A DNA stretch of 64,000 nucleotides from Pseudeuparius sepicola (taxonomy: Eukaryota > Arthropoda > Insecta > Coleoptera > Anthribidae): the NCBI GenBank assembly GCA_963920635.1, contig OY987306.1, positions 11,240,001-11,304,000 of the forward strand, given 5' to 3'. The first letter of the stretch is position 1. Every line of letters starts with the position of its first letter. Both the position numbers and the translations under genes were made by a program. A model generated the notes under the pieces. It saw only the letters and a program-made list of their open reading frames with translations, searched no databases and was not told the DNA's origin. Shown one piece after another: positions 19,836-61,780 of this stretch.

Positions 19836-20313
19836 TATAGACCGGGAGATAGTGACAGATTTTTGGACGTGATTTTACTCAGTATGCCTTGCAAAGGGCA
19901 TTATGTGGCACATATTCTCACAATAATAAGGTATGAATCAGAGAGTCATCCTGGGTTCTTGATGTGAAAAACAGAGTTTTCAATTATTCGAAAAATATGC
20001 GTTTTGATATGACTTTATACAGGCTGCCATGTGTTTTATAATGAAGTTCAAATAGAAAATTCCTCGGAAAACCATAGGCATACCGTTTGGGTTCTCCGAG
20101 GATTTTTCTATTTTGAACTTCATTATAAAACTAAAATCATATCAAAACGCATATTTTTCGAATAATTGAAAACTCAGTTTTTCATATGAAGAACCCAGGA
20201 TGACTCTCTGGTTCATACCTAATTATTGTGAGAATATGTGCCACATAATGCCCTTTGCAAGGCATACTGAGTAAAATCACGTCCAAAAATCTGTCACTAT
20301 CTCCCGGTCTATA
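19836..20313. mobile_element. Near-perfect palindromic MITE, TATAGACCGGGAGAT ends
   Basis: The arms are about 215-bp long and almost identical, from TATAGACCGGGAGATAGTGA to its inverse at 20313, around a roughly 50-bp centre (ATAGGCATACCGTTTGGG). Flanking TA is consistent with a TA target. Relatives with the same terminal core (AGATAGTGACAGATTT) occur at 22478-22535 (fragment), 42500-43100 and 43126-43605. Confidence 0.88.
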
Positions 20314-32389: not shown

Positions 32390-34450
32390 TTATAAATGTT
32401 GTAAATTTACATAAAGGGATAATAAATAGGCATGATTAAAACTAGGGCATGGATGTTGATATGAAATGTTTTGCAGCTCATTTTTTAATTTCACACCAAC
32501 ATTTTCTTCTAAAGCAAACTTTGGAAAGAGGGTACAAAAACTAACTTCGAGAGTTTCAATATAATTGAGGAAATTATCAGGAGGTGAAAATAAATGTCCA
32601 AATGTTTCGTTACCACTTGATTTGTATGCTTTAAAATAAGTAAACAAATCAGTATCCCCTAATGTATGACGTTTACAATATTTAATACAAACTTCACATG
32701 AATGTTGTTCCAAGCACTTTCTTAATAAATATCCACAAACATATGATATACTATTTGATTCATGTAGTTCGAAATCAATATAATCTGGTGCCACCGCACT
32801 TAAATCAGAAAAAATAGATCTTGCATTTCCCACAACAACTTTGTTGTAAATTTGTGTATGTTCGGTGGTTACATATGACAATAATGAATCAAAATCCTCA
32901 ATACAATTAGCCCCATCCGCGTGTTGGAAATAATTTAAACAAAATAATTTTTTGAAAGCCCTTTCGCATTGGATGGGGGTTGGATTCAAGCAATTTCCCC
33001 CTTGCTGCCTAATAGTGCCGAAAAAATTTTCGAGACAATCTTGATTTAAGCGTCGAGTGTATAAGGAACTAAACTCTAAACAATGAAATTTTTCCCAAAG
33101 ACCTAAAAATGAATTTATTGTGATTTGCCACCCTTTCAAAAATTTAACTTTATTGGTTACCTCTATATTTTGTTTTAAAATTTTAATATTCTCAAAATAT
33201 GTAAACATTTCCTTTAAAAAATCGACTTGGTAATCTGCTCCTATAAAAGGTCTATTGTATTTCTTACTGCCCGATATTTTTTGGGGAATTTAAGATATCA
33301 AATAACTTATCAATTTTTCCTACAAATGACACTGTAGCGTTTGCCGAAGGGGGGAATTGTCCGAATTCAATAAAGGAATTAAGTGCCGCAGCTACCGTTG
33401 CGCTGAAAACTTGGACGGCTAAACTAACCTTCAGTTTTTTAAAAGGACTCGGATTAATGTGTTCATCTGTTAATTTTGGACACAGCCGAAGAGCCAAAGG
33501 CTTATGTTTTTGTTTATTATAAATTTGGTCAATATACGTTTTATTTGTACATCCTTCAGAGGTTTCGAATGTGTAATTGAAACAATTATTTCGTGTTGAT
33601 TTTAAGAGATGCGGCACATCAAAAATATAAAATATTTTTTCGCTATCGACATAAAAATGTGAAGAGTTTGGAGAGATACCAACTGACTTTGAAAATTGTA
33701 CAAAATTTGATCCTTGATCAGACACTAACGCACTTACTAGTAATCCTACAGATTTAAATTTCCTTATTGCTTCAAAAATAATAAATTTTAATTCCTCCCC
33801 TGAACAAGTATCAATAAAGAAATAAGCAACTGGTTGCTTCCACTTAGCAAATATTGCTCTAGCCATAACAGCTAAAACATATTTAGCAGGAGCATATCTT
33901 TTTTACTTCAATGTATTATGAAAGCCAACAATGGTATCGGAAGATCTATTGTAAAATAAAAAAAAATTAATGACATTTCGTTAATACAAAGAATGCACTG
34001 TTTTGAAGAACCCTCTAAATTTGTAGCTTTTGATTTAGTAACCTCAAAAATGAAACTGTTAAGACCAGCAGTTATATGCCATTTGCTAGTTATTCTTTGA
34101 AGAGTGCTTTTAGATGGCAAATATAGTGGTTTCATTAAAAATCTATAAGCATTTGGGCTTAGAAAATAAATTGCTAAGGAAAATTGTTTCATATCTGACG
34201 AGTAACGATATCCCTGTGGATCTTTTTTGGAATTTTCTAAATAATGCCTTACAAATAGTAGCATTGAAGCAGACAGTTTTTTTCTCACAAATGGCAAGAA
34301 ATTGTTCGTCATTTATTTCAGTGTCGGCACTGTCGACAGCTTGCTCCAACTTCGGATGCAACTTTCTTTGGAGTTTTTTTATTTGTAACTTTAATGAATG
34401 CTTTCTTGGACTATGTGCACTCAAACTAAGAGGAGTTTGTTGACTAGCAT
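32390..34450 (-). pseudogene. P-element transposase catalytic exon, frameshifted
   Basis: After a TTTTTAG acceptor at 34451 the exon encodes a basic coiled coil (KLQIKKLQRKLHPKLEQ), then the catalytic region: NEMSL, ALVSDQGSNFVQF, DVPHLLKSTRNN, LNQDCLENFFGTIRQQGG, and YVCGYLLRKC near the end. These match the RNase H-like fold of P/THAP9 transposases, with the DQG aspartate and the glutamate in LENFFG in place. Lesions: a frameshift in an A-run near 34280, a frameshift in a T-run near 33960 followed by a stop near 33910, and a frameshift near 33270. The open pieces are 33908-34312, 33264-33866 and 32390-33208. Confidence 0.9.
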
Positions 34451-34913: not shown

Positions 34914-34985
34914 CTTAGTAAAAAAAATTCAGCAAAATTACAAGTATCAGCAAAAAATACATATTATTATCTAATAATGAAGGGG

Positions 34986-35570
34986 TATTTATGGAAATTA
35001 GTGTATGCACTGCCCGATTTTCTTGAAACTTTGGCTACCCCCCTATTTTCGAGGTCCCTGAACACGAATCTGACCTCGGTGTTTTGAGGTCGGACATAGT
35101 TTCCGAGAAAGTGAATTTTCAAATTTTCTTTTGACACCCCACTTTTTCACGATGATATTTGGTTATAATCGAGATGAATTTAGCTCAAACTGATCACCAC
35201 CCTATTTTGCACCTTCTGCAACATCGAAACTTTACGAAAACAGCGGCCAGGCCTAAACCTAAACACGACATAAATCTTTCAAAATTTCGGTCTTTCCGCG
35301 GGTTTTCGCGAAGTTTCGATGTTGCAGAAGGCGCACAATAGCGTGGTGATCAATTTGAGCTGCGTACACTAAAAATTTATCCGAATTATAACCATAAATA
35401 TCGCCGTGAAAATGGGGTGTCAAAAGGAAATTTGAAAATTCATTTTCTCGGAAACTATGTCCGACCTCAAAACACCGAGGTCAGATTCGTGTTCAGGGAC
35501 CTCGAAAATAGGGGGGTAGCCAAAATGTCAAGAAAATCGGGCGGTGCATACACTAATTTCCATAATTACC
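34986..35570. mobile_element. 585-bp palindromic MITE in a P-element intron
   Basis: Arms of about 270 bp run from ATGGAAATTAGTGTATGCAC to its inverse near 35568, with the landmark GAGGTCGGACATAGTTTCCG and its inverse. The centre near 35240-35300 is short. It lies between the THAP exon (35581-35749) and the linker exon (34720-34913), ending about 10 bp from the THAP exon's donor site. Confidence 0.88.
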
Positions 35571-42499: not shown

Positions 42500-43100
42500 T
42501 GGTGTGAATCAGAAGACAGTCATCCTCGGTTCTCGGTTCTTCATATGGAAAATTGAGTCTTCATTTTTTCGAAAACAATGCGTTTTTATGTGATTTTAGA
42601 CAGGCCGCCATGTGTTTTCAAATGAAGTTCCACGGAAAACCATAGGCACACCGTCAGCGTGGGCCGAAAGGGCTCTTGTGATCACGCGGACTTGTATTAT
42701 AATAAATAATTTTCGCCGTTTGTGAATAGGGTGCTAATGAAAAAGATGAAAGTTGTCGTTATAAAATTGCTGAAGAAAAGACGGATACTGTTTAGAGTAT
42801 ATGCCCAAATACAGTTTACATTGAATAAATCGTGTAAATTGTTAAATAACATTCAATGTAAACTGTAAACTGTACTTCAACATGCACAAACGATACGTCA
42901 CCTTCTTTAGCAGTTTTATAACAAAAACTTACATACCTACTTATCATATTTGCAGCTTGTTCAGAAACGAGCAAAAATTATTTACTAAAATACAAGTAAA
43001 CGTGACCATAATAGCCCCTTGGGCCCATGCTGACGAGATGTCTATATATTTCATATGAATCTTCTAATTTGATCTTCATTTTAAAACACATGGCAGCCTG
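42500..43100. mobile_element. Truncated relative of the 19836 MITE with an inserted palindrome
   Basis: 42505-42660 (CAGTCATCCTCGGTTCT, GGCCGCCATGTG, AAAACCATAGGCACACCGT) and 43075-43115 (ACACATGGCAGCCTGACT) are the two arms of a MITE related to 19836-20313. The interval holds another hairpin at about 42755-42925 (GTTATAAAATTGCTGAAGAA against its inverse). The outer left end is missing. Confidence 0.65.
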
Positions 43101-44593: not shown

Positions 44594-45539
44594 GCATTAG
44601 AAAAGTTTACGTCAATGCGTTTTTCATGGAGGATTTTAGGCGGACGCATATTTCAAATTTTTCTTGGGACGTTTGTGAGAGATTCAGCAGTGAATTATGG
44701 CCTCAGTTATTCGATGGAGTTAAGCTAAAAGTTTTAATTAAAAGATTTAATTGCCGACTAAACCCACTTTAAATTTCTATGCCATTGCCCATTTAATTGC
44801 ATGAATGGACTAAGTGGACAAGTTTTAGACCGACTCCATGTGAGCAGACAGAGAAGGATACGTGTTTTCTCGCACGTTCAGTTATAATTAAATACAAAAC
44901 AAGTAAAGACATGGAGCGCCACCAACTTAAGGAGTGCCCAGATTTGGCCGTGCTGAAACCACGGCAGGCTTACAAGCGCCTATACACAATACTCCATTTA
45001 TTAAAGCCTGTTTTACAAATAACAATTTTCGTCGAACAAATCCCCAATAAGCCTTACAATTTATTTTTCTGATTACTTTATTTGACATAAATGATTGCTT
45101 TTTTGATAGGGTAACTTTGTATAACATTTAAGATCCATGGCCTACTTTCGGAGATATTTTTGACAAACCCGAAAACTAACGAAAATTCTTCGGTTTGTAA
45201 CTTTTTTGTTTCAAGAGTTACCGAAACATTTTACCCGGCGTCATTTGTAGGCAAAACTAATTATTGCTTTAGCCTACTTTATCAGAATTTAAAACAATGC
45301 CACGGTTTAATGGGTATGGGTGCTCTCTTAGTACCCACCGAAAAGTGTGCCCATTTTATTGTAGCGAGCCGTGGCCTCGAATCCTGTTTCAGGTATTTTT
45401 CCCCCACATACTACATTGGAAATCTTGGAAATTTCTTACGAGGTATCGGTATATTGCACATTTTTCACATTTTCAAAATTTTCTAGTATGCATGACAGCT
45501 ATCAATAAAAAAATATGTGTTAAGAGAGCACACTATGAG
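44594..45539. other. Unassigned flank with sequence related to the right edge of the giant palindrome
   Basis: 45090-45205 (GGCCTACTTTCGGAGATA, TTCTTCGGTTTGTAACTTTT) is a diverged inverted match to 60830-60930. The outer flank of the giant palindrome therefore also has a mirrored partner, displaced here by the palindromic element at 45540-46975. A 91-codon plus-strand frame at 44797-45072 has no recognisable domain. Confidence 0.45.
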
Positions 45540-46975
45540 GCGCCATTTCGGACTAAATTATTATTTTTGAATATATAAATTTCTCGCGCTAATATATTTT
45601 TTTAATATGATATTTATAGAAATTTGCGTGAATAATCTTTTTTTAGTCAATATATTACGCATCGCCCAAAAGTATATATTGCAGTAAACGCAAAAAAATA
45701 TATCAAAACACGATATATTAATTTGGTGCGCCAATATATAATAATTTAGGGTACCACCGGTCATCACCAGAGGGCGCGGCGCATCCCTAAAGTGCACCGG
45801 TAACGCTGCAGCAGAAAGCGCAGAAGCCCGAAGTCGAAGTGATTATAATTACCGACGTACTGGATGTTCTTTTTCTGTGTCAGGTTTGGGATTTGATGTT
45901 TTGTGGTGTATAACCCCACAATCATCTTACATCATATTAGTTTCGCGCCCGCATGATCGTTTTCGTTTCGCCTTCGTTTTGTTGTAGGAAGTGGCTATTT
46001 ATTTATACGTCCGACGTATATAAAAGTCGGTATACGTCTTGCACTCTCATTGGTGGATTGAGTCACGTGACTACATTTAACTCCGTACACGTCCGAAGCC
46101 GAAGTAAACATTTGATATTGAATTGATACGTCTACGTCGGAAGCCGTCGAAAGTGCATTTTTCTCAAGCATCTTTGCAATAAGGAGCGTATTCCCTCCTT
46201 TTTGGGGGATAAGCGCTGCCGTATGAAAAAAGAAGGGGACATTCGCATCATATTGTGGCAGTCGGCAGCGATGCGCGCTGCCGTATGAAAAAAGAAGTGG
46301 TAATCTTTTCCAATGGTGTAACGTCGGGCGAAAATAGGGGATAGGAACCTATCTAGCCAAAATTTCAAGAAAATCGGGGGTGGGTTTTACACAGGGACCC
46401 TTTTTATTTTAGAGTCCCTGGTTTTACACCATTCTGCGCTTTCTGCTGCAGCGTTACCGGTGCACTTTAGGGATGCCCGGCGCGACCTCTGGTGACGACC
46501 GGTGGTACCCTAAATTATTATATATTGGCGCACCAAATTAATATATCGTGTTTTGATATATTTTTTTGCGTTTACTGTAATATATATACTTTTGGGCGAT
46601 GCGTAATATATAAATTTGACTAAAAAAAGATTATTCGCGCAAATTTCTATAAATATCATATACAAAAAAATATTTCGACTTCGGGCTTTTGCACTTTCTG
46701 CTGCAGCGTTGCCGGTGCACTTTAGGAATGCGCGGCGCGACCTCTGGTGACGACCAGTGGTACCCTAAATTATTATATATTGGCGCACCAAATTAATATA
46801 TCGTGTTTTGATATATTTTTTTGCGTTTACTGTAATATATTCTTCTGGGCGATGCGTAATATATAAATTTGACTAAAAAAAGATTATTCACGCAAATTTC
46901 TATAAATATCATATTAAAAAAATATATTAGCGCGAGAAATTTATATATTCAAAAATAATAATTCAGTCCGAAATG
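45540..46975. mobile_element. Palindromic element with a duplicated right arm
   Basis: The roughly 300-bp left arm (45540-45840; landmark GGGTACCACCGGTC, CACTTTAG inverse) is present twice, in tandem and inverted, on the right at about 46435-46680 and about 46690-46965. Each copy runs from TTTCTGCTGCAGCGTT to the AAATTTCTATAAATATCATA stretch. The centre (45850-46430) is GC-richer and contains TATATAAAAG, CACGTG and CATTGGTGG strings resembling promoter elements, plus the micro-hAT at 46392. No protein frame was recognised. Confidence 0.75.
46392..46420. mobile_element. 29-bp micro-hAT remnant with perfect 8-bp target duplication
   Basis: CAGGGACCC, a short AT stretch, then GAGTCCCTG: only the two ends of the 29153-30290 hAT family are left. 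The identical octamer GTTTTACA lies on each side (46384-46391 and 46421-46428). An extreme internal deletion that was still inserted as a unit, or that shrank after insertion, would give this. Confidence 0.85.
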
Positions 46976-47120
46976 GCGCCTCATAGCACACAACAAACCA
47001 TGGTATTTTTCCAAATTCTGATAAACTAAGTTTAAAGCAATCAGTTCTGTACACAAATTTCATTAAGAAATTTTTTCGGTAACTCTTAAGTAGTAATACA
47101 AAGAGAGTACGGGACCACTT

Positions 47121-47293
47121 TGACCTCAGTTGACCCCTTGATTCTGAGAGTCCCCTACGGCCCGAGGTCACGGCAGCAAAGTGGCTACGTCATGCCCGAG
47201 GTCACGTGACGTCACCGGATGACCCCAGTTGACCCCTAGATCCTGATAGGTTAACCTTTGACCTTTGGGCCACGTGTGACCCCCAGTTGACCC
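47121..47293 (+). promoter_or_regulatory. Cluster of nuclear-receptor half-sites, E-boxes and a CRE
   Basis: Within about 170 bp there are about nine TGACCY/AGGTCA half-sites: TGACCT at 47121 and 47259, TGACCC at 47131, 47220, 47230, 47277 and 47288, and AGGTCA at 47165 and 47199. Three neighbouring pairs are direct repeats with spacers of 4, 4 and 5 bases. CACGTG occurs at 47203 and 47271, and TGACGTCA at 47207, overlapping the first. The cluster is upstream of the small bicistron, so a regulated promoter is a reasonable inference. Confidence 0.6.
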
Positions 47294-47351
47294 CCCCCCC
47301 CACTCCAACGACGGGGCAACCCCCACTCCAACGGCTTGGTGGGGTGAGGTC

Positions 47352-47409
47352 TATATATTCGTGCGCAAGAGCAGTTTTCCCGTTATATACACTTACAATT
47401 TCCTACAGT
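47352..47409 (+). promoter_or_regulatory. Core promoter region of the small bicistron
   Basis: TATATAT at 47352-47358 is followed 20 bp later by GCAGTT, an arthropod initiator-like sequence at 47371. A second TTATATAC at 47383 is followed by ACAGTC at 47405. The spacing is slightly shorter than the usual 25-30 bp. The first ORF begins at 47429. Confidence 0.45.
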
Positions 47410-47428
47410 CTGATTTGCCGAGTTCAAA

Positions 47429-47737
47429 ATGCAGTCGTTCCTGAATCACCTGAACAAGAATTTGATCGTCAAGAAATTCGAAAGCGTTCAAAATATGGAC
47501 GTGGATGAAAATTTTCAAATCACGAGCGTGGACAAAGTGAACACGCAATACGGAGAGAAGGTCTACGTAGAGTTCGAAGAATTTAAGACGGTGCTGCCGC
47601 AACGATACACGGCCGAGTTTACGCCCCAACGGATCGAAGAAATTAATAGGGATATCGGTAACGGAAGGAGGTATTACATGAAGAGTCTTGGACCCGTCGG
47701 CCGATCTACAAATATCGAATTTATTGTAGAACCATGA
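47429..47737 (+). CDS. Small acidic protein, left-arm copy, function unknown
   Basis: 102 codons. The ATG has A at -3 and C at +4. Visible features: a short N-terminal helix-like segment (SFLNHLNKNLIVKKFES), then alternating strand-like segments with TSVDKVNTQYGEKVYVEF and TVLPQRY, then RRYYMKS and a C-terminal strand ending IEFIVEP. The YG-x-K-V-x-V...LP-x-R pattern reminds me of short OB-fold-like proteins repeatedly found in insect mobile elements, but I cannot name a family. The frame is kept identical in the other arm at 60170-60478. It is preceded by a promoter-like block and overlaps the next ORF by ATGA. Confidence 0.7.
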   Translation: MQSFLNHLNKNLIVKKFESVQNMDVDENFQITSVDKVNTQYGEKVYVEFEEFKTVLPQRYTAEFTPQRIEEINRDIGNGRRYYMKSLGPVGRSTNIEFIVEP

Positions 47738-47856
47738 CGAAGCTGGAGTACAGAAGAAAACTGCAACAATATTTGAAGAATTTAGAAGCATTGAAATATG
47801 AACTTATGTTATATGAAATTAAAATGAAGATAAAACATATTGACTTACACAATTAA
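47734..47856 (+). CDS. 40-residue helical basic peptide, overlaps the upstream ORF
   Basis: It starts at the ATG that overlaps the upstream TGA stop (ATGA at 47734-47737), a configuration used for termination-reinitiation. The peptide is rich in K, E, L and Y (YRRKLQQYLKNLEALKYEL, ending IKHIDLHN) and looks like a single amphipathic helix or coiled coil. The frame is preserved in the other arm. An AATAAA signal follows 6 bases after the stop. The function is unknown; a partner of the 102-residue protein is one possibility. Confidence 0.5.
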   Translation: MTKLEYRRKLQQYLKNLEALKYELMLYEIKMKIKHIDLHN

Positions 47857-47861
47857 TTTTT

Positions 47862-47867
47862 AATAAA
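47862..47867 (+). terminator. Polyadenylation signal AATAAA
   Basis: AATAAA lies just 3' of the second small ORF, with a GT-rich stretch (TTTTGTTGTGTTTTTTT) 13-30 bases on, a normal arrangement for cleavage and polyadenylation. It is mirrored at 60040-60045. Confidence 0.55.
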
Positions 47868-48256
47868 CGTTTAAAAATCTTTTGTTGTGTTTTTTTATAA
47901 GAATCTTTGTGTTGAAGGGAAAACACCTGAAGCATCATATTATAATAAAACTCTCACTCTAAGCAATAATATCACTCTATTCCACTGTTATGTGTATACA
48001 GGGTGATTCTTAACTTATACACATAAATTTGGAAAATTGTAGGTTATGTCAAGTAATGGCTAATAATGAAAAAAAAAGTCTAATAAAATTGTTATCGATA
48101 AGGTCTGCGTTTGTGATCTTATGAACCATAATTTTTAATTTATTTGTGCAAATAAACCCCGAATTGTTCAAGTCCACAAAATTATAACTCAGCTGTTGCG
48201 TCGCATCGGGTTACTCGCTGCGAACGCGTGACCGCATAGTAAATATATAGTAAGAG

Positions 48257-48392
48257 AAAACACGTGGAATAGTTCACGACAGACGCCTGCTTTGTTTGGT
48301 CGAGCACTCAGCGATTTTGCTGAAACCCCATATAGAACAATAGGCTACAAATTTCACCCAATTATCTTCTAAATAAAACTACGTGCCAGGAG
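48257..48392. other. 136-bp segment present only in the left arm
   Basis: Between TAAGAG and GAACGGAGG the left arm has about 136 extra bases; in the right arm the two flanks abut (near 59650). GAG is repeated at both junctions, as in a microhomology deletion. The lost piece includes one strand of the hairpin at 48377-48432, so the left arm is probably the ancestral state. Confidence 0.75.
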
Positions 48393-48432
48393 GAACGGAG
48401 GCCGAAGGCCTCCGTCCGACTGGCATGTAGTT
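48377..48432. repeat. GC-rich hairpin, complete only in the left arm
   Basis: AACTACGTGCCAGGAGGAAC pairs with the 3' side GTCCGACTGGCATGTAGTT, with a strongly paired core CGGAGGCC GAA GGCCTCCG. The stem is about 26 bp with a tight 3-base loop. In the right arm only the inner core survives. This is the most stable GC hairpin I see in either arm. Confidence 0.7.
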
Positions 48433-48979
48433 GCCCGAACAAAATCCACCCTTCCCCCTTGCACGCGTTTCGCGCATGCGCAGTTCCGCACTTTTGATAC
48501 CTATGAAAATTCGAAAAATTTTGAAATTTTTTATTCAAAAAATGTAATTTTAAAAAGGTCCTGATCCTATAATCCCGATAACATTTTGGGAAATTTTCAT
48601 TTTTTGACGGTGAAATGTACAAGACAAGACTCAGACGAATGTTTTATATACAAGTGCAGATAGAATTTTTTCGAGTGACTGATAAAAACAGTTATTATAA
48701 TAGTTAGTCGGAAGGCCCCAGATAACATAGGAAATTTTGTTTGAACAAAATCTGTAATAAAAATCCAAGACGTGAAAATGTAGGTAGAATTTTCGAATAA
48801 GTTTTGTATACCGGTAAAAATATATGTAAAGGTAAAAATAACGTCAGTTTCACTTGGAAAAAAATGATGAAAAAATTTCAGTAAAAAAAATACGATGTAG
48901 AGGTTGTACCAAAAAAAAATTGGAAATAATTATTTATTCCAGTAAAATATACACAAGACCGAAAAAGGTAATTGCGCGG

Positions 48980-50883
48980 CTGTCCCATTTTATACACCCT
49001 AGCTGTTTCAGTTCATCTCGTTTGGAAAAATTTTAGGGGTTATTACTTTTTTAAATACCGGTTTCCTCAACCTTATTTGAAAGTAAATATTTTTTAGTTC
49101 CCCACAGAAGGAAATAATGACGATATTTTATACCGGTGGATTCAAAAAATATATAAGGTTAGGAAAAAACCTTGGTAGGCAAACGCGGCTCTGCTGACCA
49201 GACAAAAAAAACCTTAGTCGACAAATAATGGCCTATAAGAAGGGTGCGTGATTCCACGTATCAGTTCGAGTGCTCCAAGATGCAAGTAAGTATATACCAG
49301 CTGTCCCATTTTTAAACAGCTAGATATTTGGAAACCTTTCGTAAAAAAATTCCCAAGGATTACATGAGCAAAAGAAAGAAAAAAATGTAAATATACCAGC
49401 TGTCCCATTTATAAACCGCTTGATATCTTGGAAACGAAAACTTATATAAAGGAAGTAAAAGCTATATCTTAATAGGCGGAGGACCGACTGTCATTCAGAC
49501 AGGTGAAAATTTTTTGTGATTTTTTGTAGAAGTTTTTTGCCAAAATTTTTTTTTGTCAATTTTTTTTGCCAAAATTTTTTTTTTGCCAAAATTTTTTTTT
49601 GCCAAAATTTTTTTTGGCAAAATTTTTTTTTACCAAAATTTTTTTTACCAAATTTTTTTTTTTGCAAAATTTGTTTTTGTCAAATTTTTTTTTGCAAAAT
49701 TTTTTTTCCCAAATTTTTTTTTCGTCAAAATTTTTTTCCCCAAATTTTTTTTTCGTCAAAATTTTTTTCCCCAAATTTTTTTTTCGTCAAAATTTTTTTT
49801 TGTCAAATTTTTTTTTTGCCAATTTTTTTTGCCAAAATTTCTTTTTGCCAAATTTTTTTTTGCCAAATTTTTTTTTGCCAAATTTTTTTTTGCCAAATTT
49901 TTTTTTTGTCAAAATTTTTTTTTTCATAATTTTTTTTGCCAAATTTTTTTTTTGTCAAAATTTTTTTTGTCAAATTTTTTTTTTGTAAAAATTTTTTTGA
50001 CATTTTTTTTGACAAATTTTTTTTTTTTCGAATTTTTTTTTGCCAATTTTTTTTTGCCAATTTTTTTTTTTGCCAAATTCTTTTTCGACAAAATTTTTTT
50101 TGACACAAATATAATTGCTAACGTTTAATTTGTTTACCCCATTTACGAAAATGATAACAAAATTGGATCAGACAAGATGTTTTTTCGAAGTATAGTTTTT
50201 AAACACAGGGTGCCACCACCGGTTTTACGATATAGGTTTCAAAATGCGACGCAAGTACATAAAAAAATACCCTAGAGATAAGAAAACAAAATACAACTCA
50301 CCGAAAGATTCTTGATGATGTATAAAAAGAAATCAGGTTACATCTAATGCCCCAGACAGTAAAATAAACATCCCCGAGCTATCAGATATAACCAAACATC
50401 ATTTTTCTAACGGCACAGTCATTTTCACGGGAAAAACAACCAGTAACCGTTCAAATTCCATAGATAGGTACTGCCGTAATCCAAAATTTCACTGAACTAC
50501 GCGTATCTATTATACTGAAGTAGGTACTGATACACTTCCATCTTTCCAAAGAAAAACAAACACGAAACTCAGACTTTTCATATATTTATTACAACGCCTC
50601 GATAGAGTCTTTATCTGTGGCCACGACCGAGAATCTACTGAAGCAAGTGCGACGCATAGGACGTGAAAAGTGCCGAGTTGGTTTTATTAAACAATGAAAC
50701 TTATACCTACGTATATATAAAATAAATGAGAAATATGCCAGAGATGTGAAACCTAATTGTGTTGCAAGTTTGAGGGTCCAAAAAAAAAATATTGGCTTTA
50801 ATTTTTTAAGGTGAGAAACACATCTAACAGCCAATTTGGAAATATACAAGGCAAAAAAAGTAGTGATGTGGCTGTCCCATTTT
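48980..50883. repeat. Recurrent CTGTCCCATTT motif
   Basis: CTGTCCCATTT (or with one T less) appears at 48980, 49301, 49400 and 50872. Two of the copies sit in roughly 48-bp repeats with ATATACCAG before and a GATAT...TTGGAAAC segment after (about 49291-49340 and 49388-49436). All are mirrored in the right arm. Confidence 0.65.
49508..50108. repeat. T-tract array with GCCAAAA/GTCAAAA spacers, left arm
   Basis: About 40 units of roughly 13-17 bases, each a run of 6-10 T followed by GCCAAA, GTCAAA, or similar. All T-runs are on the plus strand here; the mirror array at 57948-58512 has A-runs on the plus strand. The long phenylalanine-rich or lysine-rich frames are artefacts of this repeat. Array lengths differ between arms (about 600 against 565 bp). 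Confidence 0.9.
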
Positions 50884-52429
50884 ATGTTTTATACAGGTTG
50901 GGTTATTTTAGAATAGTTGTTCAATAGACCGAGACAACATCATAAACGCTTCCCGTTAGAACAGAATCTGATGAAAAGAAAAATTCCATCTGGGTCAAGC
51001 TACTACATAACCAAAATAAAAAATACTGAACGTTATAAAATTTAAAAAATCATATTTTCAACGGATTTTTATCCTCTGAAAATTGTTCTTGTGTAAAATT
51101 CAGTTTCACTGGGTCAAGCTAGGTGGTAACTATATAACCAAAAAAAAAATACTGAACGTTATAAAATTTAAAAAATCATATTATCAAGGGATTTTTGTCC
51201 TCTGAAAATTGGTTTTGTGTAAATTGAGTTTCAATAAGTTACTAATTGAGATAATAGGAAAAAAATCTTAAGAATCTCTTATAGAATTCTGAGACAACGA
51301 CCCTGAGAGTAAATATCATACAAAAATCTTTGTGCGTTGACTTTCAACTCAATTTAATAATTAGGTTTAATAATGACAATTTTCTCGATTATCTAGAATC
51401 AAAAATATTGCGAGTGGCAATTCACAATTTTCTAGATATCATGTGAAGCCTTAATTTTGCGTCGTAAGTTAGAGGATCCAAAAACATTGGCTTAAATTGT
51501 TTAGTAAATGCGATTAAATATGTTTAGTTTATCAACAGTTAATTGTAACAGCTTATAATCTTAGAAGCTAAACTCTTTAAAAAAATTTTTAGACAAAAAG
51601 TTGTAGTTTAATAATGGTCAGTTGGATTCCTTTTGAATCATGTTTGCATATTACCTACAAGGAGTTACAACCTCAAAACATAGAAATCGCTCATTTTAAA
51701 CCGATTTAATAAAAATTTCACCAAAACAATACTTTCACTCATATGATACACTTCTGATTAATAAAAAAGGCACCATAGGTAGTAATAATAAGATATTCAA
51801 CGGAATTTTTATCGACTGTTTGCCCATTTTGCTAGCTTTTGGGGGTATTCCTTGATATTTTAGACTGATAAAAATGAATAATAAAAATTTCACCAAAACA
51901 ATACTTTCACTCATATAATACACTTCTGATTAATAAAAAAGGCACCATAGGTAGTAGTAATAAGATATTCAACGGAATTTTTATCGACTGTTTGCCCATT
52001 TTGCTAGCTTTTGGGGGTATTCCTTGATATTTTAGACGGATAAAAATGAATAACTAAAATACAAAACGCACTGTTGACTTTACTTACGTGAATAGTAAGC
52101 CTATAATACGTATCGAAAACAGAGAAATATTCAGGTCAAGAAAAAAATGGCCTAATTTACAAGTTTGTAAATCAAAAACTACCTTTTGGCTTTTCATTTT
52201 GATGAGAAAATACGTCTAATTAGTAAGTCAAATAAATGGGACATCATGAAAGATATACTAATAATTGAACAAATGCTATCTTAGTTCTATAGGCAGAAAG
52301 GTACTATGGGTAGTAATAGTTTTGGGATCAAAAGACGACCTGTTAGCTTTTAAATTTGTTAAGAAAATACGTCTAATGAAATCGAAAGTAGTAACTAGGT
52401 TTTGGTTAACATTTCGTTAACGCGTTGAT
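50109..52429. other. AT-rich arm segment with internal duplications
   Basis: No gene was recognised. 51000-51120 and 51125-51240 repeat CTGAACGTTATAAAATTT and ATTTTTATCCTCTGAAAAT-like strings in direct orientation. 51710-51870 and 51885-52050 are nearly identical direct copies (TTCACCAAAACAATACTTTC to TATTCCTTGATATTTTAGAC). All are mirrored in the right arm (55620-57900). Confidence 0.65.
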
Positions 52430-53570
52430 GAATAAGAATGCAAGTGAAAAGTAGACCGAATTTCCCAAAAAACGGTGAGTGACCAAACAAGTTATTATAA
52501 AAAGTGGCTCGGGAGACCGATGTAACCTAGAAAACGCCTTTCCTTCGAATAGAAAGTAAAAAAAAGTTGCAAAATGGGACTTAGATGAATATTTGATGCA
52601 AGTGAAAAGTAGGCAGAATTTTCGAAAATCGGGGACGGATCAAAAAATATTAAGTTGATCGGGAGGTTGAGATAACCTATGAAACACCTTTCATTCCGAC
52701 AGAATCTGACAAAAAATTCCAAGAAAATTTTAGACGACTGTTTGCAAGTGAAAAGTATACATAATTTTTTTGAAAAAACTGAGACTGACCAAAAAAAATA
52801 GATATTAGAAAATTTTGCTCGGGAGATCGAGGTAACATAGAAAACGCCTTTCATCCGAATATAATCTGAAATAAATTCCGAGATGGGACTTAGACGAATG
52901 TTTGATGCAAGTGGAAAGTAGACCGAATTGCCGAAAAACGCGGGAGGTCGAGGTAACCTAGGAAAAACGCCTTTTATTCGAACAGAATCTGACAAAAAAA
53001 TCCAAGACGAATGTTTGATGCAATTGAAAGGTAGACAGAATTTTAGAAAAACGGCAACTGATCAAAAAATATATATTCGAAAATTTTGGTCGGGAGCCCG
53101 AGGTAACCTAGAAAACGCCTTTCGTTCTAACAGAATCCGACAAAAAAAATCCAAGACGGGATGGTAGTGGGACGAATGTTTGACGGAAGTTAAAAGTAGA
53201 CAGAATATTAAAAAACGAGAACCGACCAAATAGTTATTAGAAAAAGTGGCTCAGGAGGTCGAGGTAACCTAGGAAATGCCTTTAGTTTGAAAAGAATCTG
53301 ACAAACAAAAAATCCAAGACGAATATTTGATGCAATTGAAAGGTAGACAGGATTTTAGAAAAACGGCAACTGATCAAAAAAATATATATTCGAAAATTTT
53401 GGTCGGGAGCCCGAGGTAACCTAGAAAATGCCTTTCGTTCGAACAGAATCCGACAAAAAAATTCCAAGACGGGATGGTAGTTGGACGAGTGTTTGACGCA
53501 AGTTAAAAGTAGACAGAATATTAAAAAACGAGAACCGACCAAATAGTTATTAGAAGAAGTGGCTCGCATT
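52430..53570. repeat. Array of about seven 150-165-bp repeats, left arm
   Basis: A core GGGAGNNCGAGGTAACCTAG recurs at about 52510, 52659, 52825, 52944, 53093, 53249 and 53404. Each is followed by AACGCCTTTC, a TTCGAACAGAATCTGAC-like stretch and a CAAGTGAAAAGTAGACAGAA-like stretch. Diverged relatives occur further out in the arm near 48600-48800 and 50910-51000, so the arm may have grown by repeated duplication of this unit. Frames of up to 166 codons here follow the repeat and are not genes. Confidence 0.85.
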
Positions 53571-54486
53571 GGATTTGGGAGAGGTGTATCAAAGGCGGAT
53601 TAAGTCAGTTTTGACCAATGGTAATCGGTTCACCAGTCGATAACCTCTTGGTCACCGCGACAATAATGTTAGGTTAGGTTAACTACTTAAAAGAAATGTA
53701 AAGTAGCATCTCTGTGACGTCACAAGATTCCACAGTTGAGTTTGATCTGGTGTAAGTTGCGATTCTGGGAGTTGGAGGGTCCACGCACTTCCACACTCGT
53801 CAACGCTTCGTTAATGCGTCGTCAAAGATTCGTTAACGCGGTTATAACGCGTCTTAACGCATTGACGCGATGTTAAAGCTTCGTTAACGCTTTGTTAAAA
53901 CTTTGCTGACACGTCGTTAACGTTTCGTTAACGCGTTGTTCGTTAATGCGTTGTTCGTTAACGCATTGTTAACGAATCGATAACTAGTAGTTAACGCATG
54001 GATAACGCGTTGTTAACGCGTTGATAACGCTTCGTTAACGCGTAACGCATGGATAACGCTTCTTTCACGCGTTTAACACGTTGATAACGCTTCTTTCACG
54101 CGTTTAACGCGTTGGTAACGCCTCGTTAACGCGCTGTCAATCCTCGTTAACGCATTGTAAACGCTTCGTTAAAGCGTTTTTTAATTTGCATTATATACGT
54201 ATTTGACCAGTCATAATTAATTTAATAGTGAACGCGATTAGTCGACCACCACGCCAATAATGTTACGTAGATGGAAATAACTCTGGTGCAATGGTGTTAT
54301 ATTTTGCTAGACATCGGCCTCCCGAGCAACTTTTTCTAATAACTTTTAGGTCAGTCGAAGTTTTTTTTGGAAATGCTGTCTCTTTTTCATCTGCATCAAA
54401 TGAATATTTTTCTAAGTCATGTCTTGGAATTTTTTTTTGTCGAATTCTGTTCGAACGAAAGGCATTTCCTAGGTTACCTCGACCTC
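53567..54486. other. Asymmetric centre of the giant palindrome
   Basis: This about 0.9-kb spacer has no mirror partner. It contains a GTGACGTCAC site near 53716, AGGTTAGGTTAAC near 53671, the CGTTAACG-type array (53832-54165), and one additional 150-bp repeat unit at about 54300-54486 belonging to the right-arm array. Confidence 0.8.
53832..54165. repeat. Dense CGTTAACG-type array (iteron-like)
   Basis: About twenty TAACG cores in about 330 bp, mostly as GTTAACGC or ATAACGC and followed by GTTG or TTCG. At least eight are the full palindrome CGTTAACG (53832, 53882, 53915, 53926, 53956, 54032, 54123 and 54144, to within a base or two). Between 53991 and 54053 the cores are about 10-12 bp apart, one helical turn. 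One further TTTCGTTAACGCGTTGATGA copy sits at about 52411 and its mirror near 55628. The arrangement suggests cooperative binding of a protein. Confidence 0.85.
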
Positions 54487-55620
54487 CGAGCCACTTCTTC
54501 TAATAACTATTTGGTCGGTTCTCGTTTTTTAATATTCTGTCTACTTTTAACTTGCGTCAAACACTCGTCCAACTACCATCCCGTCTTGGAATTTTTTTGT
54601 CGGATTCTGTTCGAACGAAAGGCATTTTCTAGGTTACCTCGGGCTCCCGACCAAAATTTTCGAATATATATTTTTTTGATCAGTTGCCGTTTTTCTAAAA
54701 TCCTGTCTACCTTTCAATTGCATCAAATATTCGTCTTGGATTTTTTGTTTGTCAGATTCTTTTCAAACTAAAGGCATTTCCTAGGTTACCTCGACCTCCT
54801 GAGCCACTTTTTCTAATAACTATTTGGTCGGTTCTCGTTTTTTAATATTCTGTCTACTTTTAACTTCCGTCAAACATTCGTCCCACTACCATCCCGTCTT
54901 GGATTTTTTTTGTCGGATTCTGTTAGAACGAAAGGCGTTTTCTAGGTTACCTCGGGCTCCCGACCAAAATTTTCGAATATATATTTTTTGATCAGTTGCC
55001 GTTTTTCTAAAATTCTGTCTACCTTTCAATTGCATCAAACATTCGTCTTGGATTTTTTTGTCAGATTCTGTTCGAATAAAAGGCGTTTTTCCTAGGTTAC
55101 CTCGACCTCCCGCGTTTTTCGGCAATTCGGTCTACTTTCCACTTGCATCAAACATTCGTCTAAGTCCCATCTCGGAATTTATTTCAGATTATATTCGGAT
55201 GAAAGGCGTTTTCTATGTTACCTCGATCTCCCGAGCAAAATTTTCTAATATCTATTTTTTTTGGTCAGTCTCAGTTTTTTCAAAAAAATTATGTATACTT
55301 TTCACTTGCAAACAGTCGTCTAAAATTTTCTTGGAATTTTTTGTCAGATTCTGTCGGAATGAAAGGTGTTTCATAGGTTATCTCAACCTCCCGATCAACT
55401 TAATATTTTTTGATCCGTCCCCGATTTTCGAAAATTCTGCCTACTTTTCACTTGCATCAAATATTCATCTAAGTCCCATTTTGCAACTTTTTTTTACTTT
55501 CTATTCGAAGGAAAGGCGTTTTCTAGGTTACATCGGTCTCCCGAGCCACTTTTTATAATAACTTGTTTGGTCACTCACCGTTTTTTGGGAAATTCGGTCT
55601 ACTTTTCACTTGCATTCTTA
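54300..55620. repeat. Array of about eight 150-165-bp repeats, right arm
   Basis: Inverted counterpart of 52430-53570, with the core CTAGGTTACCTCGACCTCCC. It has one more unit than the left array, at its inner edge (54300-54486), so unit number changed in one arm after the duplication or one arm was copied incompletely. Confidence 0.85.
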
Positions 55621-57947
55621 TTCATCAACGCGTTAACGAAATGTTAACCAAAACCTAGTTACTACTTTCGATTTCATTAGACGTATTTTCTTAACAAATT
55701 TAAAAGCTAACAGGTCGTCTTTTGATCCCAAAACTATTACTACCCATAGTACCTTTCTGCCTATAGAACTAAGATAGCATTTGTTCAATTATTAGTATAT
55801 CTTTCATGATGTCCCATTTATTTGACTTACTAATTAGACGTATTTTCTCATCAAAATGAAAAGCCAAAAGGTAGTTTTTGATTTACAAACTTGTAAATTA
55901 GGCCATTTTTTTCTTGACCTGAATATTTCTCTGTTTTCGATACGTATTATAGGCTTACTATTCACGTAAGTAAAGTCAACAGTGCGTTTTGTATTTTAGT
56001 TATTCATTTTTATCCGTCTAAAATATCAAGGAATACCCCCAAAAGCTAGCAAAATGGGCAAACAGTCGATAAAAATTCCGTTGAATATCTTATTACTACT
56101 ACCTATGGTGCCTTTTTTATTAATCAGAAGTGTATTATATGAGTGAAAGTATTGTTTTGGTGAAATTTTTATTATTCATTTTTATCAGTCTAAAATATCA
56201 AGGAATACCCCCAAAAGCTAGCAAAATGGGCAAACAGTCGATAAAAATTCCGTTGAATATCTTATTATTACTACCTATGGTGCCTTTTTTATTAATCAGA
56301 AGTGTATCATATGAGTGAAAGTATTGTTTTGGTGAAATTTTTATTAAATCGGTTTAAAATGAGCGATTTCTATGTTTTGAGGTTGTAACTCCTTGTAGGT
56401 AATATGCAAACATGATTCAAAAGGAATCCAACTGACCATTATTAAACTACAACTTTTTGTCTAAAAATTTTTTTAAAGAGTTTAGCTTCTAAGATTATAA
56501 GCTATTACAATTAACTGTTGATAAACTAAACATATTTAATCGCATTTACTAAACAATTTAAGCCAATGTTTTTGGATCCTCTAACTTACGACGCAAAATT
56601 AAGGCTTCACATGATATCTAGAAAATTGTGAATTGCCACTCGCAATATTTTTGATTCTAGATAATCGAGAAAATTGTCATTATTAAACCTAATTATTAAA
56701 TTGAGTTGAAAGTCAACGCACAAAGATTTTTGTATGATATTTACTCTCAGGGTCGTTGTCTCAGAATTCTATAAGAGATTCTTAAGATTTTTTTCCTATT
56801 ATCTCAATTAGTAACTTATTGAAACTCAATTTACACAAAACCAATTTTCAGAGGACAAAAATCCCTTGAAAATATGATTTTTTAAATTTTATAACGTTTA
56901 GTATTTTTTATTTTGGTTATATAGTTACCACCTAGCTTGACCCAGTGAAACTGAATTTTACACAAGAACAATTTTCAGAGGATAAAAATCCGTTGAAAAT
57001 ATGATTTTTTAAATTTTATAACGTTCAGTATTTTTTATTTTGGTTATGTAGTAGCTTGACCCAGATGGAATTTTTCTTTTCATCAGATTCTGTTCTAACG
57101 GGAAGCGTTTATGATGTTGTCTCGGTCTATTGAACAACTATTCTAAAATAACCCAACCTGTATAAAACATAAAATGGGACAGCCACATCACTACTTTTTT
57201 TGCCTTGTATATTTCCAAATTGGCTGTTAGATGTGTTTCTCACCTTAAAAAATTAAAGCCAATATTTTTTTTTGGACCCTCAAACTTGCAACACAATTAG
57301 GTTTCACATCTCTAGCATATTTCTCATTTATTTTATATATACGTAGGTATAAGTTTCATTGTTTAATAAAACCAACTCGGCACTTTTCACGTCCTATGCG
57401 TCGCACTTGCTTCAGTAGATTCTCGGTCGTGGCCACAGATAAAGACTCTATCGAGGCGTTGTAATAAATATATGAAAAGTCTGAGTTTCGTGTTTGTTTT
57501 TCTTTGGAAAGATGGAAGTGTATCAGTACCTACTTCAGTATAATAGATACGCGTAGTTCAGTGAAATTTTGGATTACGGCAGTACCTATCTATGGAATTT
57601 GAACGGTTACTGGTTGTTTTTCCCGTGAAAATGACTGTGCCGTTAGAAAAATGATGTTTGGTTATATCTGATAGCTCGGGGATGTTTATTTTACTGTCTG
57701 GGGCATTAGATGTAACCTGATTTCTTTTTATACATCATCAAGAATCTTTCGGTGAGTTGTATTTTGTTTTCTTATCTCTAGGGTATTTTTTTTATGTACT
57801 TGCGTCGCATTTTGAAACCTATATCGTAAAACCGGTGGTGGCACCCTGTGTTTAAAAACTATACTTCGAAAAAACATCTTGTCTGATCCAATTTTGTTAT
57901 CATTTTCGTGAATGGGGTAAACAAATTAAACGTTAGCAATTATATTT
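55621..57947. other. Right-arm counterpart of 50109-52429
   Basis: Mirror of the AT-rich left segment with the same internal duplications. Scattered single-base differences are visible, for example GCTAGAGATGTG orientation against GCCAGAGATGTG, and CATATTTTCAAGG against CATATTATCAAGG in the left arm. No gene. Confidence 0.65.
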
Positions 57948-58512
57948 GTATCAAAAAAAATTTTGTCGAAAAAGAATTTGGCAAAAACAAAATTGGCAAA
58001 AAAAAATTGGCAAAAAAAAATTCGACAAAAAAAAATTTGGCAAAAAAAATGTCAAAAAAATTTTTACAAAAAAAAATTTTGACAAAAAAAATTTTGACAA
58101 AAAAAAAATTTGGCAAAAAAAAATTTTGATAAAAAAAATTTTGACAAAAAAAAAATTTGGCAAAAAAAAATTTGGCAAAATAAAATTTGGCAAAAAAAAA
58201 TTTTGGCAAAAAAAATTGTCAAAAAAAAAATTTGACAAAAAAAAATTTTGACGAAAAAAAAATTTGGTGAAAAAAATTTTTACGAAAAAAAAAATTTGGG
58301 GAAAAAAATTTTGACGAAAAAAAAATTTGGGAAAAAAAATTTTGCAAAAAAAAATTTGACAAAAAAAATTTTGCAAAAAAAAAATTTTGGTAAAAAAAAA
58401 TTTTGGTAAAAAAAAATTTTGGCAAAAAAATTTTGGCAAAAAAAAATTTTGGCAAAAAAAAAATTTTGGCAAAAAAAAATTGACAAAAAAAAATTTTGGC
58501 AAAAAACTTCTA
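57948..58512. repeat. A-tract array, right-arm mirror of the T-tract array
   Basis: Units of A-runs with TTTGGC or TTTTGAC spacers, the reverse complement of 49508-50108 but about 35 bp shorter and with different run lengths. Apparent coding frames are artefacts. Confidence 0.9.
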
Positions 58513-60039
58513 CAAAAAATCACAAAAAATTTTCACCTGTTTGAATGACAGTCGGTCCTCCGCCTATTAAGATATAGCTTTTACTTCCTTTATATAAGTT
58601 TTCGTTTCCAAGATATCAAGCGGTTTATAAATGGGACAGCTGGTATATTTACATTTTTTTCTTTCTTTTGCTCATGTAATCCTTGGGATTTTTTTTACGA
58701 AAGGTTTCCAAATATCTAGCTGTTTAAAAATGGGACAGCTGGTATATACTTACTTGCATCTTGGAGCACTCGAACTGATACGTGGAATCACGCACCCTTC
58801 TTATAGGCCATTATTTGTCGACTAAGGTTTTTTTTGTCTGGTCAGCAGAGCCGCGTTTGCCTACCAAGGTTTTTTCCTAACCTTATATATTTTTTGAATC
58901 CACCGGTATAAAATATCGTCATTATTTCCTTCTGTGGGGAACTAAAAAATATTTACTTTCAAATAAGGTTGAGGAAACCGGTATTTAAAAAAGTAATAAC
59001 CCCTAAAATTTTTCCAAACGAGATGAACTGAAACAGCTAGGGTGTATAAAATGGGACAGCCGCGCAATTACCTTTTTCGGTCTTGTGTATATTTTACTGG
59101 AATAAATAATTATTTCCAATTTTTTTTTGGTACAACCTCTACATCGTATTTTTTTTACTGAAATTTTTTCATCATTTTTTTCCAAGTGAAACTGACGTTA
59201 TTTTTACCTTTACATATATTTTTACCGGTATACAAAACTTATTCGAAAATTCTACCTACATTTTCACGTCTTGGATTTTTTTTACAGATTTTGTTCAAAC
59301 AAAATTTCCTATGTTATCTGGGGCCTTCCGACTAACTATTATAATAACTGTTTTTATCAGTCACTCGAAAAAATTCTATCTGCACTTGTATATAAAACAT
59401 TCGTCTGAGTCTTGTCTTGTACATTTCACCGTCAAAAAATGAAAATTTCCCAAAATGTTATCGGGATTATAGGATCAGGACCTTTTTAAAATTACATTTT
59501 TTGAATAAAAAATTTTCAAAATTTTTCGAATTTTCATTTCAGGTATCAAAAGTGCGGAACTGCGCATGCGCGAAACGCGTGCAAGGGGGAAGGGTGGATT
59601 TTGTTCGGGCAACTACATGCCAGTCGGACGGAGGCCTTCGGCCTCCGTTCCTCTTACTATATATTTACTATGCGGTCACGCGTTCGCAGCGAGTAACCCG
59701 ATGCGACGCAACAGCTGAGTTATAATTTTGTGTACTTGAACAATTCGGGGTTTATTTGCACAAATAAATTAAAAATTATGGTTCATAAGATCACAAACGC
59801 AGACCTTATCGATAACAATTTTATTAGACTTTTTATTTCATTATTAGCCATTACTTGACATAACCTACAATTTTCCAAATTTATGTGTATAAGTTAAGAA
59901 TCACCCTGTATACACATAACAGTGGAATAGAGTGATATTATTGCTTAGAGTGAGAGTTTTATTATAATATGATGCTTCAGGTGTTTTCCCTTCAACACAA
60001 AGATTCTTATAAAAAAACACAACAAAAGATTTTTAAACG

Positions 60040-60045
60040 TTTATT
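60040..60045 (-). terminator. Polyadenylation signal, right-arm copy
   Basis: Reverse complement AATAAA just 3' (minus strand) of the 40-residue ORF at 60051-60173. Confidence 0.5.
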
Positions 60046-60050
60046 AAAAA

Positions 60051-60173
60051 TTAATTGTGTAAGTCAATATGTTTTATCTTCATTTTAATTTCATATAACA
60101 TAAGTTCATATTTCAATGCTTCTAAATTCTTCAAATATTGTTGCAGTTTTCTTCTGTACTCCAGCTTCGTCAT
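60051..60173 (-). CDS. 40-residue helical basic peptide, right-arm copy
   Basis: Same frame and length as 47734-47856, with the same ATGA overlap with the upstream ORF (60170-60173). No difference from the left copy was noticed. Confidence 0.5.
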   Translation of the reverse strand: MTKLEYRRKLQQYLKNLEALKYELMLYEIKMKIKHIDLHN

Positions 60174-60478
60174 GGTTCTACAATAAATTCGATATTTGTA
60201 GATCGGCCGACGGGTCCAAGACTCTTCATGTAATACCTCCTTCCGTTACCGATATCCCTATTAATTTCTTCGATCCGTTGGGGCGTAAACTCGGCCGTGT
60301 ATCGTTGCGGCAGCACCGTCTTAAATTCTTCGAACTCTACGTAGACCTTCTCTCCGTATTGCGTGTTCACTTTGTCCACGCTCGTGATTTGAAAATTTTC
60401 ATCCACGTCCATATTTTGAACGCTTTCGAATTTCTTGACGATCAAATTCTTGTTCAGGTGATTCAGGAACGACTGCAT
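60170..60478 (-). CDS. Small acidic protein, right-arm copy, function unknown
   Basis: Translates to the same 102 residues as 47429-47737. Two intact identical copies point to recent duplication or ongoing gene conversion between the arms, and to some constraint on the frame. The two copies are transcribed toward each other, towards the centre of the palindrome. Confidence 0.7.
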   Translation of the reverse strand: MQSFLNHLNKNLIVKKFESVQNMDVDENFQITSVDKVNTQYGEKVYVEFEEFKTVLPQRYTAEFTPQRIEEINRDIGNGRRYYMKSLGPVGRSTNIEFIVEP

Positions 60479-60604
60479 TTTGAACTCGGCAAATCAGACT
60501 GTAGGAAATTGTAAGTGTATATAACGGGAAAACTGCTCTTGCGCACGAATATATAGACCTCACCCCACCAAGCCGTTGGAGTGGGGGTTGCCCCGTCGTT
60601 GGAG

Positions 60605-60790
60605 TGGGGGGGGGGGTCAACTGGGGGTCACACGTGGCCCAAAGGTCAAAGGTTAACCTATCAGGATCTAGGGGTCAACTGGGGTCATAAGGTGACGTCA
60701 CGTGACCTCGGGCATGACGTAGCCACTTTGCTCCCGTGACCTCGGGCCGTAGGGGACTCTCAGAATCAAGGGGTCAACTGAGGTCAAAGT
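60605..60790 (-). promoter_or_regulatory. Nuclear-receptor half-site cluster, right-arm copy
   Basis: Mirror of 47121-47293 with a few differences (for example AAGGTGACGTCACGTGACCT here against CCGGTGACG on the left, and GGGAGCAAAG against GGCAGCAAAG). The half-sites, CACGTG and TGACGTCA are all kept. Confidence 0.55.
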
Positions 60791-60817
60791 GGTCCCGTAC
60801 TCTCTTTGTATTACTAC

Positions 60818-61780
60818 TCTCTTAATTGAAACGAAAAAGTTACATATCGAAGAAATTTCGGCGATTTTCGGGATTTTGAAAAATATCTTGGAAAGTAGGC
60901 CATGGACCTCAAATGTGTTTTTACGCAAAGTTAGCACATCAAAAAAGCATTTTTTTTAATAAAGTTCTCCGAAAATGCATATTTGTCAAGATTTTCTCGA
61001 GTGGCCCTTCTTAAATACACACCCTGCATTTTTGTCCTTAACTTTTCGAGAATACCCTGTATATAAATTCGGAAGCTAGATTCGGATTCTCCAGAGAAAA
61101 CTGTATCATCCTAGTTTTAAGCTGGTCTTTTTATTTCAAAAACTAAGGATATAATCGGACTTTATTTGAGACACCTAATAATACCCTGAAAATTTTTCTC
61201 TTTTTGCTATGCGAAAAACACAATTCTATTATACTTAGAAAAATAGTTATTTGTGTAACTAGTGCAAAAAGTGCATATTTGTTTCACGAGACATATGAAG
61301 TTTTCAGCTCGAGAAGCAGTCGAGGTAACTGATGGACAAATTTATTAATTTCCAGTATTTTTTTTTTGAATTTTGTTTTCTTCATTGCCTATGAAGGTCT
61401 CAGGTTCTTCACTTAAAACTCCTTTTCGAAGTGTTGTGAAGTTTTCGGTACTGGTATACTTGGTTCACCTTCCAGAATTTGAGCAGCTATTTCAGTTTTT
61501 TTTTTTAGAAATTGAAATTTTACTAAAAGTATTTATACCAACAGGTTGAACGGAGCATTTTCCGTTATAATATCTAAGGGATGCATTTTTTCGATACGCT
61601 TCAAAAAAATTAAAAGGTTTGTTTGTCTTGCTATCGGGAATTTTCACAGTTATGATAGAAACCATGTCGTTAATATCATTTAATGGTAATTTCTGTAACT
61701 CGTCTCTGCGGCATGCTCCTGCAATGCCAAATACTGCAACTATCTATAACAATACACAAGTAAGTAGGTATAAAGTTAAA
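60818..61780. other. Right flank of the giant palindrome
   Basis: 60830-60930 is a diverged inverted match to 45090-45205. ACACACCCTGCA at 61018 and ACCCTGTATA at about 61053-61062 look like right ends of ACAGGGTG-type elements whose left ends I could not place. No gene. Confidence 0.45.

Follow-up and report, generated by a model that had tools for sequence, protein, structure and literature searches.

What leaves a near-perfect palindrome of 13.7 kb, with small genes inside its arms, in the chromosome of a beetle? The palindrome in question lies in Pseudeuparius sepicola (Coleoptera; Anthribidae; assembly GCA_963920635.1, contig OY987306.1, positions 11,240,001-11,304,000), in a stretch of 64,000 nt, read on the forward strand, that we refer to as the window. 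A first-pass annotation of this window had described mirror arms of about 6.3-6.5 kb and had offered three explanations: a large foldback transposon, an integrated virus-like or plasmid-like genome with terminal hairpins, or a host palindrome kept alike by gene conversion. We find that the palindrome forms a single insertion unit, flanked by a 6-bp target duplication and bounded by ends of Maverick type. We place a probability of roughly 0.6 on the reading that it is a non-autonomous, snapback-type mobile element moved by Maverick/Polinton-type machinery from another element.

Self-comparison and end-to-end alignment both confirm the palindrome and the size of its arms, with each border 1 bp further out than first annotated (47090 and 60817): the element runs from 47089 to 60818, spans 13,730 bp and reads AGTAGT...ACTACT. 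BLAST self-comparison of the window aligns the arms in stretches of 5,187 columns (99.0% identity) and 1,171 columns (99.5%), and within the element global alignment counts 40 substitutions along with 12 gaps, a thirteenth gap being a base just outside it. Likeness of this degree cannot have arisen by chance. By count from the global alignment, the T-tract array accounts for 26 substitutions and 6 gaps; among the 5,909 sites outside that array, 14 are substituted (0.24%). The largest gap is the arm-specific 136-bp segment that had already been noted, where the right arm has the look of a deletion bounded by two GAG trinucleotides, identified by eye; together with this segment the right arm lacks the 5' strand of the 13-bp outer stem in a stable hairpin (Table 1). 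The reported difference in array length between the arms was likewise found.

The differences all lie in the outer parts of the arms, the inner 2,017 bp (51550-53566 against 54487-56503) being identical. The chance of such a run is about 0.003 from substitutions and about 0.0002 with indels counted too, both reckoned post hoc, which suggests either that the inner arms were converted at a later time, close to the loop, or that assembly homogenised them. Inverted repeats are a known source of assembly errors, and an artefact in which one arm was assembled twice in mirror image would be in keeping with the identical inner 2 kb. It would have to contend with the 40 substitutions, the 136-bp indel and the unequal arrays that separate the arms, and with flanks that are different host sequences joining to an empty site. 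The match to that site, described below, makes a large assembly fold-back very unlikely. A smaller error, in assembly or polishing, may have made the inner arms alike.

At the borders of the element, mirror identity sets in precisely with AGTAGTAATACA (left) and stops precisely with TGTATTACTACT (right), the outermost 85 bp are identical between the arms, and the six bases directly outside both ends, CTCTTA, form a perfect 6-bp direct repeat. Six-base matches at the spacing of the element occur at 44 of 50,258 positions of the window, and AGTAGT or ACTACT occurs 29 times on the plus strand of the 64 kb, the element's own two ends included. Given the rarity of both, the end motif and the flanking repeat together are not expected by chance. 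Furthermore, a query in which the flanks were joined without the element, one CTCTTA being kept (46987-47088 plus 60825-61524), matches a paralogous sequence straight across the junction, from 45308 down to 45065. The paralog has CTCTT once and is without the next four bases, which leaves the last A of CTCTTA uncheckable there. On the strength of this sequence match, the palindrome is most readily understood as having inserted whole into a repeat already present in the host, and growth of a palindrome in place without moving is contradicted. A palindrome formed in place by the host and kept alike by gene conversion would account for the high arm identity and the inner homogeneity, but as an origin it is contradicted by the perfect flanking duplication and the junction-spanning paralog, and we regard it as scarcely credible.

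The form of the ends points to Maverick/Polinton elements. In vertebrate Mavericks the commonest end motif is 5'-(AGT)2//(ACT)2-3', the motif may also be (AG)3//(CT)3, and intact elements have 6-bp target duplications and lengths of 12.7-24.6 kb (PMC8097293). Integrases of the rve type typically make 6-bp duplications, as stated for Polinton-like viruses of protists (PMC12220804), and the doubling of the end motif is taken to enable jumping-back during protein-primed replication (PMC8097293). By inference, the ends of the palindrome suit protein priming. Because its ends, its 6-bp duplication and its size match Maverick features, we infer that Maverick-type proteins supplied in trans replicated and integrated it: a retroviral-type integrase would have joined the element to CTCTTA, and a protein-primed PolB would have replicated it from its ends, with the doubled AGT allowing jumping-back. 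Among the three explanations first offered, the virus-like genome thus comes nearest, its ends having the Maverick/Polinton motif and target-duplication length; the terminal hairpins of that proposal are hypothetical.

These similarities could be coincidental if the palindrome were a foldback-type or other cut-and-paste DNA transposon with long terminal inverted repeats (TIRs), from an undescribed family and mobilised by some unrelated transposase. Arms of such length with tandem repeats inside them are foldback-like, the window has at least six shorter self-palindromes, and the TIR element next to the palindrome (45534-46985) is likewise flanked by a 6-bp duplication, its ends being very different. 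Exact (AGT)2//(ACT)2 ends combined with a 6-bp duplication are unlikely by chance. Foldback (FB) transposons make 9-bp target duplications and have other termini; the 9-bp duplication of Drosophila FB elements is absent here, where the ends are AGTAGT, and the length of the duplication, 6 bp, led us to reject an FB transposon as such. The foldback proposal of the first-pass annotation suits the shape of the palindrome and not its ends, and we consider a transposon of this kind unlikely, while granting it some weight.

The internal repeats indicate how the two arms may have come about. The small genes, T-tract arrays and roughly 160-bp repeats are present in both arms, as annotated. The 160/313-bp array of the right arm begins at 54421 and its ~160-bp series runs on into the loop, where 54311-54486 is a further unit, 70-80% identical to the arm units and in right-arm orientation, whereas the left arm meets the loop abruptly, mid-unit, at 53566. 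Since the series crosses the border between right arm and loop but breaks at 53566, the loop is continuous with the right arm only. The centre had been called unique, which holds largely for the remaining 744 bp (one 23-bp stretch within it also matches the arms) and does not hold for the arm-type unit. Within the 172-bp tandem duplication the unit exists in two versions, distinguished by three sites, and each arm has both of them, so the duplication is older than the palindrome. No shared sequence was seen at the turn of the palindrome, and the left arm and centre gave no match at E<=1e-3 in the rest of the window.

Such a loop, continuous with a single arm, would be expected from a parent whose right end was copied back, or joined, onto itself. 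It is plausible that a longer parent comprised the right arm and the loop, and that the palindrome began with copying of its right end, which at 54487 would have switched to, or been joined with, its own complement before running back to the end. The outcome would be a snapback molecule with a 0.9-kb loop, whose displaced single strand could fold into a duplex of about 6.4 kb with one double-stranded end, carrying its own second strand. A different order of events would have an ordinary Maverick-type element inserted first and its terminal repeats extended inward afterwards, in the chromosome, by deletion, inverted duplication or gene conversion. Flanks and ends would then appear the same, and the identical inner 2,017 bp make some inner homogenisation likely, but the duplication would have to exceed 6 kb, lie exactly opposite and meet the far terminus. 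A single snapback event before integration is simpler, and we judge inward extension distinctly improbable.

The gene content weighs against a snapback element of Maverick type, in that membership of the Mavericks is putative and their core genes were not found in the scanned open reading frames (ORFs). Pfam and PHROGs were searched with 74 stop-to-stop ORFs of >=40 aa, ORF1 included, taken from the left arm, the centre and, of the mirror-copy right arm, only its first 214 bp; any that overlapped the T array were set aside. DNA polymerase (PolB included), integrase, transposase, ATPase, protease and capsid families matched 0 of the 74 ORFs at E<=0.01, a search that genes in short exons would escape. 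The longest scanned ORF has 188 aa, and the longest right-arm ORF listed with a start codon, within the T array, has 190 aa; with frames of this length, no full-length polymerase frame is open. As the defining genes were not found, the status of an autonomous Maverick fails, and a non-autonomous Maverick derivative is plausible on the sequence at hand. The earlier observation that only small genes of unknown kind are present, and that they sit in the arms, holds for the ORFs examined. Matches to DIE2_ALG10 (Pfam, E 0.0038), to DUF3919 (Pfam, E 0.0081; a family also weakly matched by ORF1) and to two unnamed PHROGs (E 0.0027 and 0.0076) are at chance level for 74 queries and were dismissed.

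Table 1. Features of the palindrome and its surroundings (positions in the window)
Feature	Position	Strand	Remarks
Left target-site duplication, CTCTTA	47083..47088	.	
Left arm	47089..53566	+	6,478 bp; BLAST and global alignment
Terminal AGTAGT	47089..47094	+	(AGT)2 end motif of Mavericks (PMC8097293)
Nine RGGTCA/TGACCY half-sites	47121..47293	+	beside element end
ORF1, 102 aa	47429..47737	+	left arm
ORF2, 40 aa	47734..47856	+	start overlaps ORF1 stop (ATGA)
136-bp segment, left arm only	48254..48389	+	largest gap of arm alignment
Imperfect G+C-rich hairpin, 56 bp, stable	48377..48432	+	left arm; z -7.5
T-tract array, left	49533..50101	+	~15-16 bp unit, ~37 copies
172-bp tandem duplication, left	51707..52059	+	
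160/313-bp tandem repeats, left	52943..53566	+	cut mid-unit at 53566
Asymmetric loop	53567..54486		920 bp, between arms
TTAACG/CGTTAA array in loop	53809-54167		24 motifs vs 0.58 expected
Right arm (mirror copy)	54487..60818	-	6,332 bp; BLAST and global alignment
172-bp tandem duplication, right	55994-56346		
T-tract array, right	57952-58506		~36 copies
ORF2 copy	60051..60173	-	right arm; coordinates by mirror mapping from arm alignment
ORF1 copy, identical protein	60170..60478	-	right arm
Mirror terminal ACTACT	60813-60818		
Right target-site duplication, CTCTTA	60819..60824	.	
Paralogous empty insertion site	45065..45308	-	E 7e-36, 188/254 columns identical, 19 gaps

Each arm carries one small two-ORF gene close to the element end. 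The base composition of ORF1 varies with codon position, and by eye a TATA-like box stands at 47352 and an AATAAA at 47862. The nine half-sites beside the element end compare with a mean of 0.27 in shuffles of 47089-47360, and 32 such sites occur in the 50,270 bp of the window outside the element; they include three direct-repeat pairs, two spaced 4 bp and one spaced 5 bp. They may point to hormone-receptor control of the small gene, and the block is presumably copied in the right arm.

Relatives of ORF1 were sought widely. A set of 5.8 billion proteins gave none at E<=10, where one candidate shared short words; Pfam gave two families, the best at E 0.011 and both below their cut-offs, PHROGs gave none at E<=1, and the best match among PDB sequences had E 1.9. 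Phage records gave a single hit (E 7), while 14 pattern matches in viral contigs and 84 in genome contigs yielded 0 confirmed cases each; these phage, viral and genome collections are viral or prokaryotic, and absence from them says little on eukaryotic relatives. A PDB search with a pooled alignment, which gave nothing at E<=0.01, was a poor test owing to its unrelated rows and was ignored. The structure model of ORF1 is beta-rich with one main helix, and its top VIA rows were Pur-alpha, with PC4 and MRP1/2 lower. The small gene may act on single-stranded DNA, which we treat as a weak lead.

We tentatively suggest, at rather less than even odds, that Maverick-type elements have in the palindrome a self-complementary satellite. 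It would be a snapback genome turned mobile unit, using the integrase of a helper, carrying its own second strand and holding a small DNA-binding gene beside each origin. Such a palindromic derivative, ending like a Maverick, would preserve in nature an episode of strand-displacement copying that reversed upon itself; it would also show that eukaryotic genomes harbour snapback forms, defective and dependent on a helper, left by virus-like transposons. In the literature available to us, the view that Mavericks replicate by protein priming rests on their genes and the doubled end motif.

The motif array first noted in the centre was recovered as an array of TTAACG/CGTTAA, in which 8 of the 23 steps between motifs are 19-22 bp. 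The only Rfam match in the element, tsr1, falls on this array (E 0.033; 23.5 bits, where the cut-off is 235) and was set down to chance. A tRNA search with the bacterial code setting found none.

Several other sequences in the window deserve mention. The neighbouring element at 45534-46985 is bounded by inverted repeats that are 94% identical over about 313 bp, with ends TATGAGGCGCC, and a 6-bp duplication of its own, GCACAC, flanks it; it stops about 100 bp before the palindrome. Shorter self-palindromes, at least six among the longest 150 matches listed, lie at 1845-2275, 17279-17946, 19836-20313, 23256-24235, 34984-35570 and 42652-43035; they measure about 0.4-1 kb and are 73-89% identical to their own complements, and the region seems rich in foldback-like sequences. 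A P-element-type transposase at 32390-34312 on the minus strand, in three adjacent ORFs with Tnp_P_element, TNP-like RNaseH and GTP-binding insertion domains, shows no evident connection with the palindrome. The ORF at 13061-13546, with a weak match to zf-RVT (reverse-transcriptase zinc-binding region; E 0.00016, below cut-off), is perhaps a non-LTR remnant.

How does the palindrome compare with known systems? Exact patterns of 19 and 20 bases from the element ends are absent from viral contigs, and among the matches listed, the titles and abstract openings of the literature searched describe no palindromic Maverick. With Ginger transposons the palindrome would share movement by an integrase-like enzyme; Ginger elements differ in having TGTNR ends, 4- or 5-bp target duplications and TIRs of about 40-270 bp (PMC2836005), and they were rejected on the AGTAGT termini. 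Very long inverted repeats containing tandem repeats are a likeness to FB transposons, which two sources name in passing (PMC6431247, PMC8504770). Drosophila-associated adintoviruses are Polinton-like and of similar size (13.3-14.6 kb), but have ten to twelve predicted proteins, including PolB, integrase, capsid, protease and FtsK genes in the best-described case, and the string 'palindrom' occurs 0 times in the text describing them (PMC8363768). Mavericks and Polintons themselves share with the palindrome the (AGT)2//(ACT)2 ends, the perfect 6-bp target duplication, a size within 12.7-24.6 kb and accessory ORFs outside the core modules (PMC8097293). They differ from it in that its scanned ORFs give no PolB, integrase, ATPase, protease or capsid gene, in that it is gene-poor and repeat-rich, and in the length of its terminal repeats, 6.3-6.5 kb as against 46-1,447 bp for vertebrate TIRs (PMC8097293). 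A parallel in layout is provided by asymmetric snapback genomes of adeno-associated virus (AAV), which are parvovirus subgenomes in particles, whereas the palindrome is integrated with a target duplication (PMC8235507). Their loop is single-stranded, they replicate with functions supplied in trans, and the authors favour end joining as their origin (PMC8235507). In these genomes one end is joined to its own complement and the loop is continuous with one arm (PMC8235507), and two inverted arms with a loop continuous with one of them are likewise what we observe in the palindrome.

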